Positions 39,314-49,579 of a stretch of DNA of 50,592 nucleotides are shown piece after piece. The DNA is from Alphaproteobacteria bacterium (GTDB taxonomy: Bacteria; Pseudomonadota; Alphaproteobacteria; SP197): NCBI GenBank assembly GCA_016869675.1, contig VGDP01000023.1, forward strand, positions 1 to 50,592, written 5' to 3'. Position 1 is the first letter of the stretch, and each line of letters starts with the position of its first letter. Below the pieces are notes generated by a model, which saw only the letters and a program-made list of their open reading frames with translations, had not been told where the DNA came from and did no database searches. The position numbers and the translations under genes are program-made.

Positions 39314-39787
39314 ATGAATCGCGCCGTCGCCCGCACCGTGTCCCTGCCCGATCCCGCCGCCACCCGCACGCTCGGCGCCCGCATCGCGCGCGCGCTCGGC
39401 CCCGGCGACGTGGTCGCGCTGGAAGGGCCGCTTGGCGCGGGCAAGACCGCGCTCGCCCGCGCCATCCTGGCCGCGCTCGGCGTCGCCGGCGAGGTGCCCA
39501 GCCCGACCTTCACCCTGGTGCAGACCTACGAGACCCGGCGCGGCGAGGCCTGGCACGTCGATCTCTACCGCCTGTGCGACTCAGGCGAGGCGCGCGAACT
39601 CGGGCTTGAGGACGCGTTCGCCGCCGCGATCTGCCTGGTGGAATGGCCCGATCGCCTGGGCACCGCGCTGCCCGACGACCGGCTCGCGGTGGCGCTCGCC
39701 TTCGCCGACGATGCCGAGGCGCGCCACGCCGAGCTGATCGGCCACGGGACCTGGGCGGAACGGATCGATGATGTCCTCGACACCTGA
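39314..39787 (+). CDS. tsaE: tRNA threonylcarbamoyladenosine biosynthesis ATPase TsaE
   Basis: 157 aa. Walker A is GPLGAGKT (residues 38-45), then VPSPTFTLVQTYE and WHVDLYRLCDSGEARELGLED, with VEWPDRLG toward the end; all are TsaE blocks. TsaE is the P-loop ATPase that resets the TsaBD complex in making t6A37 on ANN-decoding tRNAs. It overlaps the next gene by 20 nt. The divergent gap to the reductase gene is 74 bp. Confidence 0.95.
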   Translation: MNRAVARTVSLPDPAATRTLGARIARALGPGDVVALEGPLGAGKTALARAILAALGVAGEVPSPTFTLVQTYETRRGEAWHVDLYRLCDSGEARELGLEDAFAAAICLVEWPDRLGTALPDDRLAVALAFADDAEARHAELIGHGTWAERIDDVLDT

Positions 39788-40760
39788 CCGCGCCGCCCAG
39801 ATCGCGGGCTTTCTCGACGCCGCCGGCTGGGGCGGTGCCGCGCGCCGGCCGCTTGCGGGCGACGCCTCGTTCCGCCGCTACGACCGGGTCCGGCTGGGCG
39901 CGCGCCGGGCCGTGCTGATGGACGCGCCGCCGGCGCAAGAGGACGTGCGTCCGTTCGTGCGCGTCGCCCGGTTCCTGGCGGACCACGGGCTCGGCGCACC
40001 GGCGATCCTAGCGGCGGACGAGACGAACGGCCTGCTGCTGCTCGAGGACCTGGGCGACGACCTCTACACCCGCGTGCTGCGCGACGGCGCCGACGAGGCG
40101 GCGCTCTACGACGCCGCCATCGACGTGCTGCTCGCGCTGCATGCGGTCGAAGTCCTGCCGATGGTGCCCGCCTACGACGAGGCGCGCATCCTCGACGAAT
40201 CGAACTTGCTGCTCGACTGGTTCCTGCCGGCCGTGTCGGGCCGGCCGGTCGACGAGGCGGCGCGCGCGGGCTACCACGACGCGCTGCGCGCCGTGCTGCC
40301 GGCGGCCTTCGCGACGCCGCGCCGCCTGGTCCTGCGCGACTACCACGCCGACAACCTGATCTGGCTGCCCGCGCGTGCCGGTGTGCGGCGCTGCGGCCTG
40401 CTCGACTTTCAGGACGCGGTCGCCGGCTCGGTCGCCTACGACCTGGTGTCGCTGCTCGAGGACGCGCGGCGCGACGTGGCGCCGACGGTCGTGCGCCGGG
40501 CGTTCGACCGCTACGTGGCCGGCGCGCCTGTCGGCCACGCCGCGGTCGAGGCGGCCTACGCCGTGCTCGGCGCCCAGCGCAACGCGCGCATCGTCGGCGT
40601 GTTCACGCGCCTGTGGCGGCGCGACGGCAAGCCGCAGTACCTGGATCTGTTGGCGCGCGTCTGGACCTACCTGGAGCACGACCTGGCGCATCCGGCGGTC
40701 GAGCCGTTGCGCCGCTGGTTCGACGTTCACATCCCGCCGGCCTGGCGGCGGCGGCCGTGA
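39768..40760 (+). CDS. amgK: Aminoglycoside-phosphotransferase-fold kinase, AmgK-like
   Basis: 330 aa. The APH fold shows the catalytic loop LVLRDYHADNLIWLP (Asp191) and the metal-binding LLDFQDAVAG (Asp213). In Pseudomonas, AmgK phosphorylates the anomeric carbon of N-acetylmuramate and GlcNAc for the peptidoglycan recycling route that bypasses de novo UDP-MurNAc synthesis, and MurU acts next. The murU homologue follows with a 4-nt overlap, which supports this role, though the group also contains uncharacterised kinases. ATG 39768 and ATG 39771 are both possible starts; either overlaps tsaE. Confidence 0.85.
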   Translation: MMSSTPDRAAQIAGFLDAAGWGGAARRPLAGDASFRRYDRVRLGARRAVLMDAPPAQEDVRPFVRVARFLADHGLGAPAILAADETNGLLLLEDLGDDLYTRVLRDGADEAALYDAAIDVLLALHAVEVLPMVPAYDEARILDESNLLLDWFLPAVSGRPVDEAARAGYHDALRAVLPAAFATPRRLVLRDYHADNLIWLPARAGVRRCGLLDFQDAVAGSVAYDLVSLLEDARRDVAPTVVRRAFDRYVAGAPVGHAAVEAAYAVLGAQRNARIVGVFTRLWRRDGKPQYLDLLARVWTYLEHDLAHPAVEPLRRWFDVHIPPAWRRRP

Positions 40761-41464
40761 CGCCATCGCGCGCCATGGTGCTGGCGGCCGGGCGCGGTGA
40801 ACGGCTGCGCCCGCTGACCGATCGCCTGCCCAAGCCCATGGTTCCGGTGGGTGGACGGTCGATGATCGACCGGGTGCTCGACCGGCTGGCCGACGCGGGT
40901 GTCCAGGTCGCTGTGGTCAACACGTGGCACCGGGCCGAGGCGATCGAGGCCCATCTCGCCGCGCGTACCCGTCCACGCATCGTCATCAGCCGCGAGGAGA
41001 CCCTGCTCAACACCGGCGGCGGCACCGTGGGCGCGCTGCCGCACCTGGGCGCGGACCCGTTCTACATCGCAGCGGCCAAGATGGTGTGGCGCGACGGCGC
41101 GCGCCCGGCCTTGCGCCGCTTGGCGGAAGCCTGGAACGATGGGACCATGGACGGGCTGCTGCTACTGCAACCGCGCGAGGCGGCGCTCGGCTTCGAGCAC
41201 CCAGGCGATTTCTTTCTGGCGGACGACGGACGCTTGCTTCGGCGCGGTTCGGCGCCCAGCGCGCCCTTCGCCTTCACCAGCCTGCAGCTCGCGCATCCGC
41301 GCGTGTTCGCCGATCCGCCGCCCGGCGCCTTTTCCCTGAACCTGGTGTGGGACCGCGCGATCGCCGCCGGGCGGCTCCACGGCCTGGTGCACGACGGCGA
41401 CTGGTGCAACGTCTCCTCGCCCGGCGGGCTCGCGCTCGCCGAGGCGCGCTCGTGGGATGGCTGA
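40757..41464 (+). CDS. murU: MurU-like nucleotidyltransferase with altered active site
   Basis: 235 aa from GTG 40757. The N-terminal nucleotide-binding motif is intact: MVLAAGRGERLRPLTDRLPKPMVPV, and NTGGGTVGALPHLG follows. The next block should be NSD or NGD, whose Asp binds the catalytic Mg2+; here it reads YIAAAKMVW, so residues 106-108 are Ala-Ala-Lys. The later block usually seen as HVGTP reads NVSSP. MurU converts MurNAc-1-phosphate to UDP-MurNAc; this copy may be inactive, differently specific or regulatory. It sits in the expected tsaE-amgK-murU-addB order and is full length. Confidence 0.8.
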   Translation: MTPSRAMVLAAGRGERLRPLTDRLPKPMVPVGGRSMIDRVLDRLADAGVQVAVVNTWHRAEAIEAHLAARTRPRIVISREETLLNTGGGTVGALPHLGADPFYIAAAKMVWRDGARPALRRLAEAWNDGTMDGLLLLQPREAALGFEHPGDFFLADDGRLLRRGSAPSAPFAFTSLQLAHPRVFADPPPGAFSLNLVWDRAIAAGRLHGLVHDGDWCNVSSPGGLALAEARSWDG

Positions 41465-44400
41465 GGCCGCGCGCGTCCACACCATTCCGGCCGGCGTCCC
41501 CTTCGCCGACGCCCTGGCCACGGGCCTGCTCGCCCGCGCCGCCAATCCCCTGGCGCTCGCCGACATCCAGCTCCTGCTGCCGACGCGCCGCGCCTGCCGC
41601 GCCGTGCGCAATGCGTTCCTGAGGGTCGGCGACGGCCGCGCCCTGCTGCTGCCGCGCCTGGTGCCGATCGGCGACGTAGACGAGGACGTGCTCGACGCCG
41701 AGGACGCCGCGATCGGGCTGGACGCCGAGGACGTGCCGCCGGCCATCACCCCGTTGCGCCGCCAGTTCCTGCTCGCCCGCTTGGTGCTGCGCGCCCAGGG
41801 CGCGCTCGACGTCGGCGGGCCGGAACGGGCGATGCGGCTGGCGGCCGAGCTCGCCCGGCTCTTGGACGACGCCCAGACCGCCGGCGTCGACCTGGCGGGG
41901 CTCGTCGACCTGGCGCCCGCGACGTACGCCGAACACTGGCAACGGAGCCTGGCGTTCCTCGGCATCCTGACCGAGCATTGGCCGCGCGTCCTAGCCGAGC
42001 ACGGCGTGATCGACCCGGCCGACCGGCGCAACCGGCTGCTCGCGCGCCAGGCGGCGCGCTGGCGCGCGGCGCCGCCTGCCCATCCAGTGGTGGTGGCCGG
42101 ATCGACGGGCAGCGTGCCCGCCGCCGCCGACCTGATCGCGGCGGCGTCGTCGCTGCCCACGGGCCTGGTCGTGCTGGCCGGCCTGGACCAGGCCATCGAC
42201 GAGGAGAGCTGGCAGGCGATCGGAGTGACCCACCCGCAGGCGGCGCTGAAGCGGTTGCTCGAGCGCCTGGGCCTCGGGCGCGACCAGGTCGCGCCGTGGC
42301 CCCACGGCGACGGCAGCCGCGCGGCGGCGCGTGCGCGCCTGCTGGGCGATGCCCTGCGTCCGGCGGCGACGCTGGGCGCCTGGCGGACCTCGGGTGGCGG
42401 GGATGATGCTGCCCTTGCCGGCCTGGCGCGGGTCGACGGCCCGACGCCCCAGGTCGAGGCCGGTGTCATCGCCGGCGCCATGCGCGAGGCGCTGGAAACC
42501 CCCGGCGCCACGGCGGCGCTGGTCACGCGCGACCGCGCGCTCGCCCGGCGCGTCGCCGAGGCCTTGGGCCGCTGGGGTGTGGCGGTCGACGATTCCGCGG
42601 GCCGGCCGCTGGCCGCGACACCGCCCGGCGCGTTCCTGCGCCTGGCCGCCGCCATGGCCGAGTCGAACGTCGCGCCGGTGCCGCTGCTTGCCCTGCTCAA
42701 GCACCCGTTGGCCGCCGGCGGGGGCGATCCCGCGCGGTTCCGTGCCGCGGTGCGGGCCATCGAGCGCGTGGCCTTGCGTGGGCCGCGTCCGGCCGCCGGC
42801 TTCGACGGCCTGGTCGCGGCTCTGGCTGACAAGGGGACGCCGCGCCTGCGCAACCTGGCGCGGCGCGTCGCCCGCGCCGGCCACCGCTTCGTCCGGCTGG
42901 CCGGCGGCAACCGGCCAGCGCGCCTCGGCGACCTGGTCGAAGCCCACGTCGCCTTCGCCGAAGCGCTGGCCGCGACCGACGAGGAAGGCGGCGCCGACAG
43001 GCTGTGGCGGCACGAGGATGGCGAGGCCCTGGCCGCGTTCATCGGCGAATTGCGCGAGGCGTCCCAGGCCATGGGTCGCGTGCGCGGCGCCGACTACGCG
43101 GGCGTGTTCGATACCTTGATCGCCGGACGCGCCGTTCGGCCGCGCTACGGTCGGCACGCCCGGCTCGCCATCTGGGGCCCGCTCGAGGCACGGTTGCAGA
43201 GCGCCGATCTGATGATCCTGGGCGGGCTGAACGAAGGGTCGTGGCCGCCCGCGCCCGATCTCGACCCCTGGCTCAGCCGGCCCATGCGCGCCTCCCTCGG
43301 CCTGGCCGACCGCGAGGCGCGCATCGGCCAGGCGGCGCACGACTTCGTGCTGGGCGCCGCGGCGCCGCGCGTCCTGTTGACCCGCGCCGAGAAGGTCGAA
43401 GGCACGCCGACCGTGGCGTCGCGCTGGCTGGTGCGCCTCGACGCCCTGCTTGCCGCCCGGGGCCTGTCCGAACGTCCGTTCGGCGGCGCGGTGGCCCGGC
43501 TCGGCTGGCACGCGGCGCTCGACCGGCCCGACCGGGTGGTGCCCGTGGCTCGGCCGCGCCCCGCGCCACCCGTCGCCGCCCGGCCGCGCCGGGTGTCGGT
43601 CACCGATATCGAGACCTGGCTGGCCGACCCCTACGCCCTCTACGCGCGCGCGGTGCTGGGTCTCGCGGCGCTCGACCCGATCGACGCCGATCCGGGCGCG
43701 GCGGAACGGGGCCAGTTCATCCACGATGCCCTCGACCGGTTCGTCAAGGCGTGGCCCGACGCGCTGCCTGACGACGCCCTCGACCAGCTCATCGCGTGCG
43801 GCAGGGCGGCGTTCGGCGCGGCGCTGGAACGGCCCGACGTCCATGCGTTCTGGTGGCCGCGCTTCAAGCGGATCGCTGCGTGGATCGTCGAGCAGGAGCG
43901 TGAACGGCGCGGCGGGATCGCGCGTGTGCTCGGCGAGGCGCGCGGACGCGCGGTGCTGGACGCGCCGGCCGGTCCATTCGAGCTGCACGCCAAGGCCGAT
44001 CGGGTGGAGGTGAACCGTGACGGCTCGCTCGCGCTGATCGACTACAAGACCGGCGTGCGTCCGGCGAACAAGGCGGCCCGCGAGGGCAAGGCGCCGCAAC
44101 TGGCCCTGGAAGGCGTCATCGCCAACCACGGCGGCTTCGAGGGCGTGGCGCCGGGGCCGCTCGCCGAACTTGCCTTCTGGCACCTCAAGGGCGGCGACCC
44201 GGCGGGCGAGGCAATTGCGCCGAAGGGCCTGGTCGACGCGTGCGCCCAGACCGAGGACGCCCTGAAGGGACTGGTACGGCGCTTCGATGACCCCGCCACG
44301 CCCTACCTCGCGTGCCCGCGCCCCGACATGGCGCCCGCCTACAACGACTACGAGGAGCTGGAGCGCATCGACGAGGGCGAGGCGACGCCCAGCGCCGTAC

Positions 44401-47400
44401 CGCCGTACCGGCCCAGGACACGCGACCGCCCGCGCGCCGGCGCGCGGGCCCCCCGGCCCGAACAGCGCGACATGTCCGATCCGGCGACCTCCGCGTGGGT
44501 CGCCGCGTCCGCCGGCACGGGCAAGACCACGGTGCTGACCGACCGGGTGCTGCGGCTGCTGGCCGGCGGCACGCCGCCCGGACGCCTGCTGTGCCTGACC
44601 TTCACCAAGGCCGCGGCGGCCGAGATGGCCCAGCGCATCGAGCGCCACCTAGGCCATTGGGCGACCGAGCCCGACGACGCGTTGGCCGCGAGCGTCGGCG
44701 CGCTCCTGGGCGCGCCGCCGGCGCCCGAGGTGCTGGACCGCGCTCGACGCCTGTTCGCCGACGTGCTCGAGACGCCGGGCGGCCTGCCGATCATGACGAT
44801 CCACGCCTTTTGTCAGGCGGTTCTGGAGCGCTTCCCGGTCGAGGCGGGCGTCGCGCCCGGCTTCGAGGTGCTCGACCCGTGCAGCGCGCGCGAACTGCAG
44901 GCCGACGCGCTCGACGCGGTCATCGCGCGCTCGAAGTCCGATCCGCTGCTGAATCGGCACGTGGCCACCGTCGCGACCTGGTCGGGCGAGATGACCCTGC
45001 GGGCCCTGATGGACGAGGTGACCCTGGATCGTGGCCGCTTCGACGCCTTGCTGCGGCGCCACGGCCGCGCCGCCGGTGCCGCCGCTGCATTGCGCCGGAC
45101 ACTGGGCGTGGTGTCGGACGACACGATCGAGCGGCTGATCGCGCGCACGGCGGATCCCGCCGCCATGGACGAACCCGCGCTCGCCGCCGCCGCGCGCGCC
45201 CTGCGCGAGGGGTCCGTGACCAACCAGGAGCTGAGTGCCGCCATCGCCGCCTTCCTCGCAACGCCGGCGGCGGCACGCCACGAAGACTTCGATGCCTGGT
45301 ACGGCCGGTTCCTCACCAAGGAGGAAAAGCCCCGCAAGACCTCGATCCTGATCAACAAGGCGGTGGCGCAGCGTTACCCCGCGGCTGTCGCGGCGCTGGA
45401 GCGCGAGCGGGACCGCATGGTCGCCTTCGTCGACGAGCGCAACCGCGTCATCACCGCCGAGGCGACGGCCGCGCTGTTCCACGTCGGCGAGGCGTTCCTG
45501 GCGGCCTACGCGGCGCGCAAGGCGGTGCGCGGCGTGCTCGACTACCAGGATCTGATCCTGGCCGCCGCCGACCTGGTGACACGGCCCGGCGCGGCGCCCT
45601 GGGTGCTCTACAAGCTGGACGGCGGCATCGATCACATCCTGGTGGACGAAGCGCAGGACACCAACCCCGACCAATGGCGCATCGTGACCGCCCTGGTCGA
45701 CGAGTTCTTCGCCGGCGAAGGCGCGCGCGAAACGCCGCACACGCTGTTCGTGGTCGGCGACCAGAAGCAGTCGATCTTCAGCTTCCAGGGCGCTGACCTG
45801 GAAGGCTTGGCCAGTGTGCATCACGACCTGCGCCAGCGCGCCAACGCCGCCGGGGTGCCGTGGCTGGAACGCGCCATGACCCACTCGTTCCGTTCGGCGC
45901 CGGTCATTCTGGAGGTGGTGGACACGGTGTTCGCGCGGCCCGAGGCCCGTGCCGGCGTGGTCCCAGATGGCGCCGTCGTGCGCCATGTGGCCGGGCGTTC
46001 GGACGCGCCGGGGCGGGTCGAGGTCTGGCCGTTGACCAGCGGCGATCCGCCCGCCGCCACTTCGCCGTGGGACGCGCCGATCGCGTATCCGGGCGCCGTG
46101 CGCGCGATCGATCGTCTGGCCGCCCATGTCGCGGATCGCATCGCCGCCATGGTTGGTCGCGTGACGCTGGGTTCGCGCGGCCAGCCGGTGCGGCCGGGCG
46201 ACATCATGATCCTGGTGCGCAGGCGCGATGCGATGATGCACGCCGTGATCCGCGCGCTGCGCCGGCGCGACGTGCCCGTGGCCGGGATCGACCGCATAGC
46301 GCTGACCGGCCCGCTCGCGGTGCGCGATCTGCTCGGCCTGATCGACGTGGCGCTGCTGCCCGAGGACGACCTCGCGCTGGCCACCGTGCTCAAGGGGCCG
46401 CTGGTCGGTCTGGACGAGGACGAACTCTACACCCTGGCCGCCGGCCGCGCCAAGGGAGTGCGCCTGTGGACGGCGCTGGGCCGCGCCGCGCGACGCCACG
46501 CGCGCTGCGCCCGCGCGCACCAATGGCTCGCCGGCCTGATGGCGCGCGCGGATTTAGCCACGCCATACGGGTTCCTGTGCGCCGCGCTCGAGGAGCCGGC
46601 CGCCCAGGAGGATGCCGGCAGCGGCCGCCACGCCATGCTGCGCCGCCTCGGGCTCGAGGCCGAGGACCATATCGACGAGTTGCTGACCCAGGCGCTCGCC
46701 TTCGAACGCAACCACGCGCCGACCCTGCAAGGCTTCGCCCACTGGCTGGGCCACGCCGACGTCGAGGTCACGCGCGATCCCGAGCATGGCCGCGACGAGG
46801 TGCGCGTGCTGACCGTGCACGGCGCCAAGGGGCTCGAGGCGCCGATCGTGATCCTGCCGGACACCACCGGGCTGCCCAATGCGAGCGGCGTCCGGCTGGA
46901 TTGGATCGCCGAGGATGGGCCGCTCTGGTCGGGCCGCGCGGCCTTCGCCGAGGATCGGGGCCGGGGCGCGAAGCAGGCGCGTCTGGTGGCCGAGGCGGCG
47001 GAGTACCGCCGGCTGCTCTATGTCGCCCTGACGCGCGCTGCGGATCATCTGATCGTGGCCGGCCTGGCGGTCAAGGGAACGGCGCCGGACGGCTCGTGGT
47101 ACCGCCTGGTGCGCGATGCCCTGGGGCCGGTGGCGACGGTCCAGCCCTTCGACGCCTGGCCCGGCGATGCGTTTGTGTTGGAAGCCGAGGGTCGAGGGCC
47201 TGGTCCTGCCGAGCCTGGACCCGCGCCCGAGCCGGACCTTCCGGCCTTGCCGGCCTGGTTGCGGCAACCCGCCCCGGTCGATGCGCCGGCGCGTCAACCG
47301 TTGGCGCCGTCGCGCGGGCCCGAGGAACCGCCGTCCGGGTCGCCGAAGAAGGCGGACGCCGACCGCCGCCGGCGCGGCCGACTGATCCATCGCCTGCTGG

Positions 47401-47828
47401 AACTGCTGCCCACCGTGGCGCCATCGGCGCGCGCCCGCCTGGCCGAACGCCTGTTGGTACGCCACGGCGCGGACCTCGATGTCGCCGCGCGCGCCGCCAT
47501 GGTGGCCGAGGTGCTGGCCGTCATGGCGGCGCCCGGTCTGGTGGATCTGTTCGGGCCGCAGAGTCGGGCAGAGGTCCCCATCGTCGGCGTGGTCGGCGAT
47601 CGAGTGGTCGCCGGCCAGGTCGACCGCCTGGTCGTCGGTGCCGGAACCGTCGTCATCGCGGACTTCAAGTCGGATCGCGCCGTGCCCGACCAGGTGCCCG
47701 CCGCGTACCGGCACCAGATGGCGCATTACGCCGCGGTGCTGCGCCAAGTCTTCCCGCGCCACCGCGTCAGCGCCGTGCTGATCTGGACCGAGGGCCCGCG
47801 CGTCATGCCGGTGCCCGACCTTGCTTGA
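41457..47828 (+). CDS. addBA: Fused AddB-AddA double-strand break repair helicase-nuclease
   Basis: A single 2,123-aa frame covers what are normally two genes. Residues 1-1000 are AddB: alphaproteobacterial N-terminus (IQLLLPTRRACRAVRNAF), GGLNEGSWPP, then the RecB-family nuclease with LIDYKTG (Asp862, Lys864). A proline/arginine-rich linker of about 35 residues leads into AddA from about 1003: Walker A SAGTGKT (Lys1023), LCLTFTKAAAAEMA, Walker B VDEAQDT (Asp1397), QKQSIFSFQGA, VHGAKGLEAPIV, YVALTRA and a second nuclease motif DFKSD (Asp2069, Lys2071). AddAB resects double-strand ends for RecA loading. An in-frame ATG at 44472 could restart AddA but has no Shine-Dalgarno site. It overlaps murU by 8 nt. 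Confidence 0.88.
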   Translation: MAEAARVHTIPAGVPFADALATGLLARAANPLALADIQLLLPTRRACRAVRNAFLRVGDGRALLLPRLVPIGDVDEDVLDAEDAAIGLDAEDVPPAITPLRRQFLLARLVLRAQGALDVGGPERAMRLAAELARLLDDAQTAGVDLAGLVDLAPATYAEHWQRSLAFLGILTEHWPRVLAEHGVIDPADRRNRLLARQAARWRAAPPAHPVVVAGSTGSVPAAADLIAAASSLPTGLVVLAGLDQAIDEESWQAIGVTHPQAALKRLLERLGLGRDQVAPWPHGDGSRAAARARLLGDALRPAATLGAWRTSGGGDDAALAGLARVDGPTPQVEAGVIAGAMREALETPGATAALVTRDRALARRVAEALGRWGVAVDDSAGRPLAATPPGAFLRLAAAMAESNVAPVPLLALLKHPLAAGGGDPARFRAAVRAIERVALRGPRPAAGFDGLVAALADKGTPRLRNLARRVARAGHRFVRLAGGNRPARLGDLVEAHVAFAEALAATDEEGGADRLWRHEDGEALAAFIGELREASQAMGRVRGADYAGVFDTLIAGRAVRPRYGRHARLAIWGPLEARLQSADLMILGGLNEGSWPPAPDLDPWLSRPMRASLGLADREARIGQAAHDFVLGAAAPRVLLTRAEKVEGTPTVASRWLVRLDALLAARGLSERPFGGAVARLGWHAALDRPDRVVPVARPRPAPPVAARPRRVSVTDIETWLADPYALYARAVLGLAALDPIDADPGAAERGQFIHDALDRFVKAWPDALPDDALDQLIACGRAAFGAALERPDVHAFWWPRFKRIAAWIVEQERERRGGIARVLGEARGRAVLDAPAGPFELHAKADRVEVNRDGSLALIDYKTGVRPANKAAREGKAPQLALEGVIANHGGFEGVAPGPLAELAFWHLKGGDPAGEAIAPKGLVDACAQTEDALKGLVRRFDDPATPYLACPRPDMAPAYNDYEELERIDEGEATPSAVPPYRPRTRDRPRAGARAPRPEQRDMSDPATSAWVAASAGTGKTTVLTDRVLRLLAGGTPPGRLLCLTFTKAAAAEMAQRIERHLGHWATEPDDALAASVGALLGAPPAPEVLDRARRLFADVLETPGGLPIMTIHAFCQAVLERFPVEAGVAPGFEVLDPCSARELQADALDAVIARSKSDPLLNRHVATVATWSGEMTLRALMDEVTLDRGRFDALLRRHGRAAGAAAALRRTLGVVSDDTIERLIARTADPAAMDEPALAAAARALREGSVTNQELSAAIAAFLATPAAARHEDFDAWYGRFLTKEEKPRKTSILINKAVAQRYPAAVAALERERDRMVAFVDERNRVITAEATAALFHVGEAFLAAYAARKAVRGVLDYQDLILAAADLVTRPGAAPWVLYKLDGGIDHILVDEAQDTNPDQWRIVTALVDEFFAGEGARETPHTLFVVGDQKQSIFSFQGADLEGLASVHHDLRQRANAAGVPWLERAMTHSFRSAPVILEVVDTVFARPEARAGVVPDGAVVRHVAGRSDAPGRVEVWPLTSGDPPAATSPWDAPIAYPGAVRAIDRLAAHVADRIAAMVGRVTLGSRGQPVRPGDIMILVRRRDAMMHAVIRALRRRDVPVAGIDRIALTGPLAVRDLLGLIDVALLPEDDLALATVLKGPLVGLDEDELYTLAAGRAKGVRLWTALGRAARRHARCARAHQWLAGLMARADLATPYGFLCAALEEPAAQEDAGSGRHAMLRRLGLEAEDHIDELLTQALAFERNHAPTLQGFAHWLGHADVEVTRDPEHGRDEVRVLTVHGAKGLEAPIVILPDTTGLPNASGVRLDWIAEDGPLWSGRAAFAEDRGRGAKQARLVAEAAEYRRLLYVALTRAADHLIVAGLAVKGTAPDGSWYRLVRDALGPVATVQPFDAWPGDAFVLEAEGRGPGPAEPGPAPEPDLPALPAWLRQPAPVDAPARQPLAPSRGPEEPPSGSPKKADADRRRRGRLIHRLLELLPTVAPSARARLAERLLVRHGADLDVAARAAMVAEVLAVMAAPGLVDLFGPQSRAEVPIVGVVGDRVVAGQVDRLVVGAGTVVIADFKSDRAVPDQVPAAYRHQMAHYAAVLRQVFPRHRVSAVLIWTEGPRVMPVPDLA

Positions 47829-47885: not shown

Positions 47886-48209
47886 ATGACCGTCAAGCAC
47901 GCCTCCGACGCATCGTTCGACCAGGACGTGCTCAAGGCCGAACGGCCCGTACTCGTCGATTTCTGGGCGGAATGGTGCGGCCCGTGCAAGCAGATCGCCC
48001 CGGCGCTCGAAGCGCTGGCGGGCGAACGCGCCGACAAGCTGGACGTGGTCAAGATCAACATCGACGACAACCAGAAGACGCCCACCCGCTACGGCGTGCG
48101 CGGCATCCCGACCCTGATGCTGTTCAAGGGCGGCCAGGTGGTGGCGACCAAGGTGGGCGGCGCGCTGCCCAAGTCCAAGCTGTTCGAGTGGGTCGATTCG
48201 GTGGTGTGA
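47886..48209 (+). CDS. trxA: Thioredoxin
   Basis: 107 aa with the classic active site [15 protein letters not shown] (Cys31, Cys34), cis-proline in [11 protein letters not shown], and no signal peptide, so it is cytoplasmic. It reduces disulfides and serves as the usual electron donor for MsrA/MsrB and ribonucleotide reductase. AGGGA is about 8 nt before ATG 47886. Its place directly after addA is a conserved alphaproteobacterial arrangement. Confidence 0.97.
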
Positions 48210-48217
48210 GGCACGCC

Positions 48218-49579
48218 GTGGCGAAGCAGGACGCGGCGGCGGCGGTCGCGGCGTTCCGCGCCGCGCACCCGAGCATTGAGACCGTCGATCCGCTGATCGT
48301 CGACATGGTCGGCGCGGTGCGCGGCAAGCGCCTCGCCATCGACGCGCTCGACAAGGTGATCGGCGGCGGCGTGGTGCTGCCCGGTTCCACCTACGTCATG
48401 GACATCCTGGGCAACAACGTGGACGCGACGGGCATGGGTCCGCGCGACGGCGACCCGGACTACCCCTGCCACATGGTTCCCGGCAGCCTGGTGCCCATTC
48501 CTTGGGCGACGCGGCCGCGCGCCCAGGCGCTGATGAGCATGACGTTCCCGGACGGCACGCCATACCCCTACGACCCGCGTGCGATCCTGGCCGCCGTCGC
48601 GGCGCGCTTCGCGCCGCTCGGGCTGCGACCCACCGTGGCCGTTGAGCTTGAATTCTATCTGCTCGACCCGGCGCGCGCGGCGGACGGCGGCGTGCGCGTC
48701 GCCGCGCCGGGCGGCAAGGCGCCGACCGAGACCCAGGTCTACAGCCTGGAGGACCTGGACGCGATCGCGCCGTTCCTGGACGACGTGCAGCGCGCGTGCG
48801 CCATCCAGGGCATTCCGGCCGATGTGGCGACCGCCGAGTACGCGCCGGGTCAGTACGAGATCAACCTGCGCCACGTCGACGATCCGGTGCTGGCCGCCGA
48901 CCACGCGATCCTGCTCAAGCGCGCGATCCGGGGCACGGCCGAGCGCCACGGCTATGTGGCCACGTACATGGCCAAGCCGTTCATCGAGTTGCCCGGCAAC
49001 GGCACCCACATCCACCTCAGCCTGTGGGACGCGCAAGGGCGCAACGTGTTCGACGAGGGCGACGCGGGCAGCGACCGGCTGCGTCACGCCATCGGTGGCC
49101 TGCGGGCGACCATGGCGGAATCCATGGCCTTGTTCGCGCCCAACGCGAACTCATACCGGCGCATCCGTCCCGGCGCGTGGGTACCCATGGCGCCGACCTG
49201 GGGCTTCAACAACCGGACCGTCGCCGTGCGCATTCCGGCGACGCTCGGCAAGGCGACCCGGCTGGAGCACCGCGTCGCCGGTGCCGATGCCAATCCCTAC
49301 CTGGTGTTGGCGGCCGTGCTGGCCGGGGTCCATCACGGTCTAGAGCGACGGCTTGATCCGGGGCCGCCCATCGAAGGCAACGCCTACGACCAGGTGCCGG
49401 CCTTGATGCCGGACAGTTGGGCCGCCGCGCTGGACCAGCACGACGCTGGCACCATCCTGCCAACCTACATCGACCGCCGGTACTGGAGCTTCTACGGCAT
49501 GGTCAAGCGGCACGAGCGGCGCACGTTCGAAGGGCGCGTTACGCCCACCGAGTACGACTGGTATCTGACGACGGTCTGA
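48218..49579 (+). CDS. Glutamine synthetase family protein, PuuA-like
   Basis: 453 aa. Catalytic-domain blocks: VAVELEFYLLD and AEYAPGQYEINL (metal-binding Glu), GNGTHIHLSLWD (ammonium/ATP region), YRRIRPGAWVPMAPTWGFNN, and RLEHRVAGADANPYLVLAAVLAG. The spacing resembles gamma-glutamyl-polyamine synthetases and related GlnA-like enzymes rather than the housekeeping type I enzyme; there is no Tyr adenylylation segment. It probably ligates glutamate to an amine. GTG 48218 is preferred; GTG 48206, overlapping the trxA stop, would add four residues. No other putrescine-pathway gene is in view. Confidence 0.85.
   Translation: MAKQDAAAAVAAFRAAHPSIETVDPLIVDMVGAVRGKRLAIDALDKVIGGGVVLPGSTYVMDILGNNVDATGMGPRDGDPDYPCHMVPGSLVPIPWATRPRAQALMSMTFPDGTPYPYDPRAILAAVAARFAPLGLRPTVAVELEFYLLDPARAADGGVRVAAPGGKAPTETQVYSLEDLDAIAPFLDDVQRACAIQGIPADVATAEYAPGQYEINLRHVDDPVLAADHAILLKRAIRGTAERHGYVATYMAKPFIELPGNGTHIHLSLWDAQGRNVFDEGDAGSDRLRHAIGGLRATMAESMALFAPNANSYRRIRPGAWVPMAPTWGFNNRTVAVRIPATLGKATRLEHRVAGADANPYLVLAAVLAGVHHGLERRLDPGPPIEGNAYDQVPALMPDSWAAALDQHDAGTILPTYIDRRYWSFYGMVKRHERRTFEGRVTPTEYDWYLTTV

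Follow-up and report, generated by a model that had tools for sequence, protein, structure and literature searches.

Resection of DNA double-strand breaks, the response to Chi and the loading of RecA are the established roles of AddAB, which ordinarily carries one PD-(D/E)XK nuclease in each subunit. The AddAB of Bacillus subtilis is laid out with two nucleases and one motor and can be likened to the protein described here, while RecBCD fills the same role with three subunits, two motors and one nuclease and is in this respect unlike AddBA. Among complexes that process DNA ends, natural joining of subunits has been described for Mre11/Rad50 (SbcD/SbcC), where fusions are recurrent and sporadic and lateral transfer has been proposed (PMC3175470). 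No published AddB-AddA fusion was found in a literature search that had most subscription journals outside its coverage, and a 2005 survey makes no mention of one (PMC1193525).

AddB and AddA in one open reading frame

The window, i.e., the whole stretch of 50,592 nucleotides that was analyzed, makes up one of the 97 contigs in a draft genome of 3.49 Mb. An earlier note on this DNA had reported an uninterrupted frame running from AddB into AddA, and its coordinates were right: the ORF has no internal stop across its 2,123 codons, and both NCBIfam equivalogs are matched over their full length.

40769-41464, + strand: murU-like gene, start approximate (NF045697 match below its cut-off, synteny)
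41457-47828, + strand: fused AddB-linker-AddA gene, single ORF of 2,123 aa (ORF call, NCBIfam and Pfam profiles)
41472-44375, + strand: AddB part, residues 6-973, full length (NCBIfam TIGR02786 over cut-off)
43590-44294, + strand: AddB PD-(D/E)XK nuclease domain with H756, D848, DYK 862-864 and Q881 (PF12705, motif conservation)
44376-44459, + strand: linker, residues 974-1001 (family comparison)
44460-47813, + strand: AddA part, residues 1002-2119, full length (NCBIfam TIGR02784 over cut-off)
44463-44465, + strand: Q1003, the AddA Q-motif glutamine, upstream of the junction's only in-frame ATG (alignment to D. radiodurans UvrD LNPTQ)
44472-44474, + strand: ATG (M1006), M or L in relatives, no Shine-Dalgarno sequence (junction comparison)
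44514-44528, + strand: AddA Walker A, GTGKT (motif conservation)
47346-47789, + strand: AddA C-terminal PD-(D/E)XK nuclease (PF12705, motifs)
47886-48209, + strand: trxA (downstream neighbor in all family members having that flank)

The addB_alphas model (TIGR02786) aligns to residues 6-973 over positions 1-1022 of its 1024 with 969.5 bits (cut-off 486.5), and addA_alphas (TIGR02784) aligns to residues 1002-2119 over positions 2-1138 of 1138 with 1145.4 bits (cut-off 860.75); in the RecB equivalog test, recB scored 151.2 bits and thus stayed under its cut-off of 696. Pfam recognizes a UvrD helicase and two PD-(D/E)XK domains (PF12705 twice, over cut-off) in the fused protein, and a Pfam search of the window's genome returned no second PF12705 protein. 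SF1A helicase motifs Q, I, Ia and II-VI of the AddA half are present and conserved in the family, and the catalytic residues of both nucleases are intact here and kept through the family, which bears out the earlier description of an AddB nuclease motif followed by a complete AddA. That description had also credited the fusion with creating an enzyme with two nuclease domains; two are indeed present, but they are not due to the fusion, given that the ordinary complex has them as well.

Compared with other alphaproteobacterial AddAB, the order of addB and addA and the full-length equivalog matches are alike, but one polypeptide stands here in place of two genes. Separate adjacent genes, the usual arrangement, were found in none of the 12 family genomes that carry the gene; all have one ORF. 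It is the gene structure and not the enzyme that departs from the alphaproteobacterial type: this is a gene fusion of an already known complex, and its novelty lies in the encoding of both subunits as a single chain. The AddA chain of B. subtilis AddAB (structures 3u44, 3u4q and 4ceh-4cej) is homologous to the AddA half, but the B. subtilis enzyme differs in the Fe-S cysteines of its AddB: in the two regions examined around the AddB nuclease no conserved cysteine was found, and the protein here is encoded as a single chain. No Walker A is evident at the N-terminus of the AddB half.

The murU-like ORF overlaps the start of the fused ORF by 8 nt, an overlap through which translation of the two genes may be coupled. 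Upstream, the ORFs of the tsaE-amgK-murU cluster (window 39314-41464) are tightly packed or overlapping. Downstream, trxA is followed by a glutamine synthetase-family gene (48254-49576) with synteny kept in the family; its product is over the cut-off for Gln-synt_C and under every NCBIfam equivalog cut-off.

Distribution and origin of the fusion

The window's order is represented here by one family with 16 genomes in 5 genera. Wherever the gene is present (12 genomes, all 5 genera), the frame is open through the junction: eight carriers have the entire fused ORF unbroken with 2,162-2,453 codons from stop to stop, three stay open up to the end of their contig, and the remaining one, G009, has two frame changes within AddA far from the junction. 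At this last locus (L041; G009:C16:102500-109845), AddA homology resumes in new frames, which could reflect sequencing indels or an early pseudogene. The order amgK-murU-addBA-trxA is common to family members wherever the contig includes the flanks. The search for further genomes with AddB and AddA in one protein, proposed in the earlier note, thus yielded 11 more, all in the window's family.

No AddB-AddA fusion was detected in other families, neither in a class scan of 385 genomes, where a stop-free alignment across the junction was confined to the window's family, nor in a phylum scan of 398 genomes, where 133 had AddB and the frame holding it exceeded about 1,290 codons in the window's genome alone. 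Separate genes, as the earlier note had stated for alphaproteobacteria, are the rule in every other family sampled. In five of these families (G121, G231, G127, G297 and G305; L077-L081), the alignment spans the junction with one TAG or TAA stop there, and addA follows addB in-frame a few codons on, e.g., '...SAAGEL*VMAEHD...'. With a single in-frame stop in between, removal of that one codon would be enough to yield the fusion, and a route by stop-codon loss from a same-frame addB-addA state is what we infer. The loss of the stop-start junction proposed in the earlier note is supported by read-through in all 12 carriers and by an in-frame stop at the corresponding place in the five other families.

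Several candidates were rejected as fusions: the five families just named because of their stop at the junction, G043 because its AddB lies in a different frame from AddA, whose open frame extends over 2,226 aa, and L047 because addB and addA are separate there. In a plasmid search, no record reached 80% coverage of the fused protein at a single place, and where these genes are annotated they are separate.

A maximum-likelihood tree of AddB plus AddA (LG+F+G4; 20 taxa, including 11 fused proteins, three of them partial) separates fused from unfused proteins at 100% ultrafast bootstrap. With all fused proteins on one side of this split, a single old origin is indicated, and one fusion event predating diversification of the family followed by vertical inheritance would be the simplest reading. 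This differs from the Mre11/Rad50 fusions in that joining of AddB to AddA goes back to one origin, with apparently vertical inheritance in an order.

Across the family, the linker measures 28-34 codons (about 28 residues in the window), and its frame and length are kept, with the frame preserved through indels, while its sequence is variable. The proline/arginine richness ascribed to it in the earlier note holds for the window's genome, where it is strongest, but not as a family trait since relatives keep the length and not the composition. The two closest pairs give a linker dN/dS of 0.13 and 0.23, computed over 25-34 codons only, versus 0.06-0.10 for the AddB and AddA halves. In more diverged pairs the range is 0.2-1.4, with counts that are small and synonymous sites that are in part saturated, and the diverged G000/G004 pair, with unreliable dS, nears or passes 1. 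Such a pattern fits a tether that would be translated yet loosely constrained. An open linker in one genome proves nothing by itself because the chance of a 29-codon stretch being open in this GC-rich DNA is high (P about 0.93); the joint probability for all 12 linkers is about 0.002 if independence is assumed, although the genomes are relatives. The element not explained by chance is a full-length AddB plus AddA in one stop-free frame in 12 of 12 relatives. The fusion is real, order-specific, ancient and maintained by selection, and both of its halves resemble the ordinary enzyme.

Four genomes of genus g3 (G008, G010, G011 and G014; L069-L072) lack addBA and have a gap of about 140 bp between murU and trxA, and six other members of the genus retain the fusion. 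RecB is over its cut-off in three of the four; in the fourth, a short contig carries a fragment of RecB. G008 has recC, recB and recD side by side, each scoring over its cut-off. The fused gene has thus been lost cleanly and as a whole in these g3 genomes, and RecBCD occurs in its place.

One chain or two proteins

We consider it highly probable, judging from the comparisons above, that AddAB is made here as one chain, i.e., as a covalently tethered AddB-AddA heterodimer. The main competitor is that one frame gives two proteins, with AddA produced also or mainly from an internal start, perhaps at an unusual codon, or with the chain cut in the linker, and the usual heterodimer doing the work. 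Some features speak for this: an ATG stands at the residue preceding SDP in 8 of 12 members, further in-frame ATG or GTG codons occur in the linker of some members, and a flexible, arginine-rich linker could be a protease target. In the window's junction, however, the sole in-frame ATG/GTG/TTG is the ATG at 44472, which the earlier note had rightly singled out as the only start candidate and as being without a Shine-Dalgarno sequence. It encodes M1006, three residues past the Q-motif glutamine Q1003, and no ATG, GTG or TTG precedes Q1003 in the junction of this genome. Glutamine is found at the Q1003 position in 12 of 12 family members, and the AddA of unfused relatives starts before it, so the ATG at 44472 is unlikely to be the start of a working AddA. 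Nor is the start position conserved: no position within the linker serves as a common start among family members, and the residue at M1006 is L in four of them (G003, G004, G006 and G007 lack an ATG there). A Shine-Dalgarno-like sequence precedes a junction start in G007 only, although such signals are weakly informative since genuine nearby starts are also weak and poorly told from internal ones. Separate production of a fully working AddA thus appears unlikely, and we give the two-protein alternative a small chance.

Two other explanations are far less probable. An assembly or sequencing error that erased a stop codon or frame shift, which the earlier note had raised as a possible indel in the linker, might be suspected in a draft of 97 contigs with a relative (G009) that has frame breaks, though these lie inside AddA. 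It is ruled out by the open junction in eleven other assemblies, one of which has just 2 contigs. Only marginally more credible is decay of the fused gene into a relic while RecBCD takes over. The loss of the gene in four g3 species carrying RecB and the AddA frame breaks of G009 would agree with decay, but active-site motifs are intact and dN/dS is low in fused carriers, and a search of five fused carriers (G000, G002, G004, G006 and G009) gave no RecB over the family cut-off.

A probable tethered AddAB and its implications

For the single-chain enzyme, we propose that in an ancestor of the order the stop codon between addB and a same-frame downstream addA was lost and the genes were joined, with the former AddB tail and AddA N-terminus becoming a flexible linker of 28-34 residues. 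The one translated product would fold like a normal AddB-AddA pair held by the tether, be active and confer an advantage. Its AddA half would be an ATP-driven 3'-5' translocase with one nuclease, and its AddB half, by homology to B. subtilis AddAB, would contribute the second nuclease and a degenerate helicase scaffold that recognizes Chi. The tethered enzyme would resect double-strand breaks for RecA, with the tether setting a 1:1 stoichiometry and the pair being assembled upon translation. An obligate single-chain AddBA is probably the sole AddAB/RecBCD-type enzyme for resection of double-strand ends in most of the order, never split into subunits and with subunit exchange impossible.

For single-molecule or structural work, a natural tethered AddAB would be a ready single-chain enzyme with its stoichiometry fixed at 1:1, and it would demonstrate that the two subunits can work without dissociating. 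Annotation pipelines built around two genes may give the fused gene a wrong label. The fusion is a derived trait shared across the order, and the swap to RecBCD inside one genus suggests that even the fused form is replaceable.
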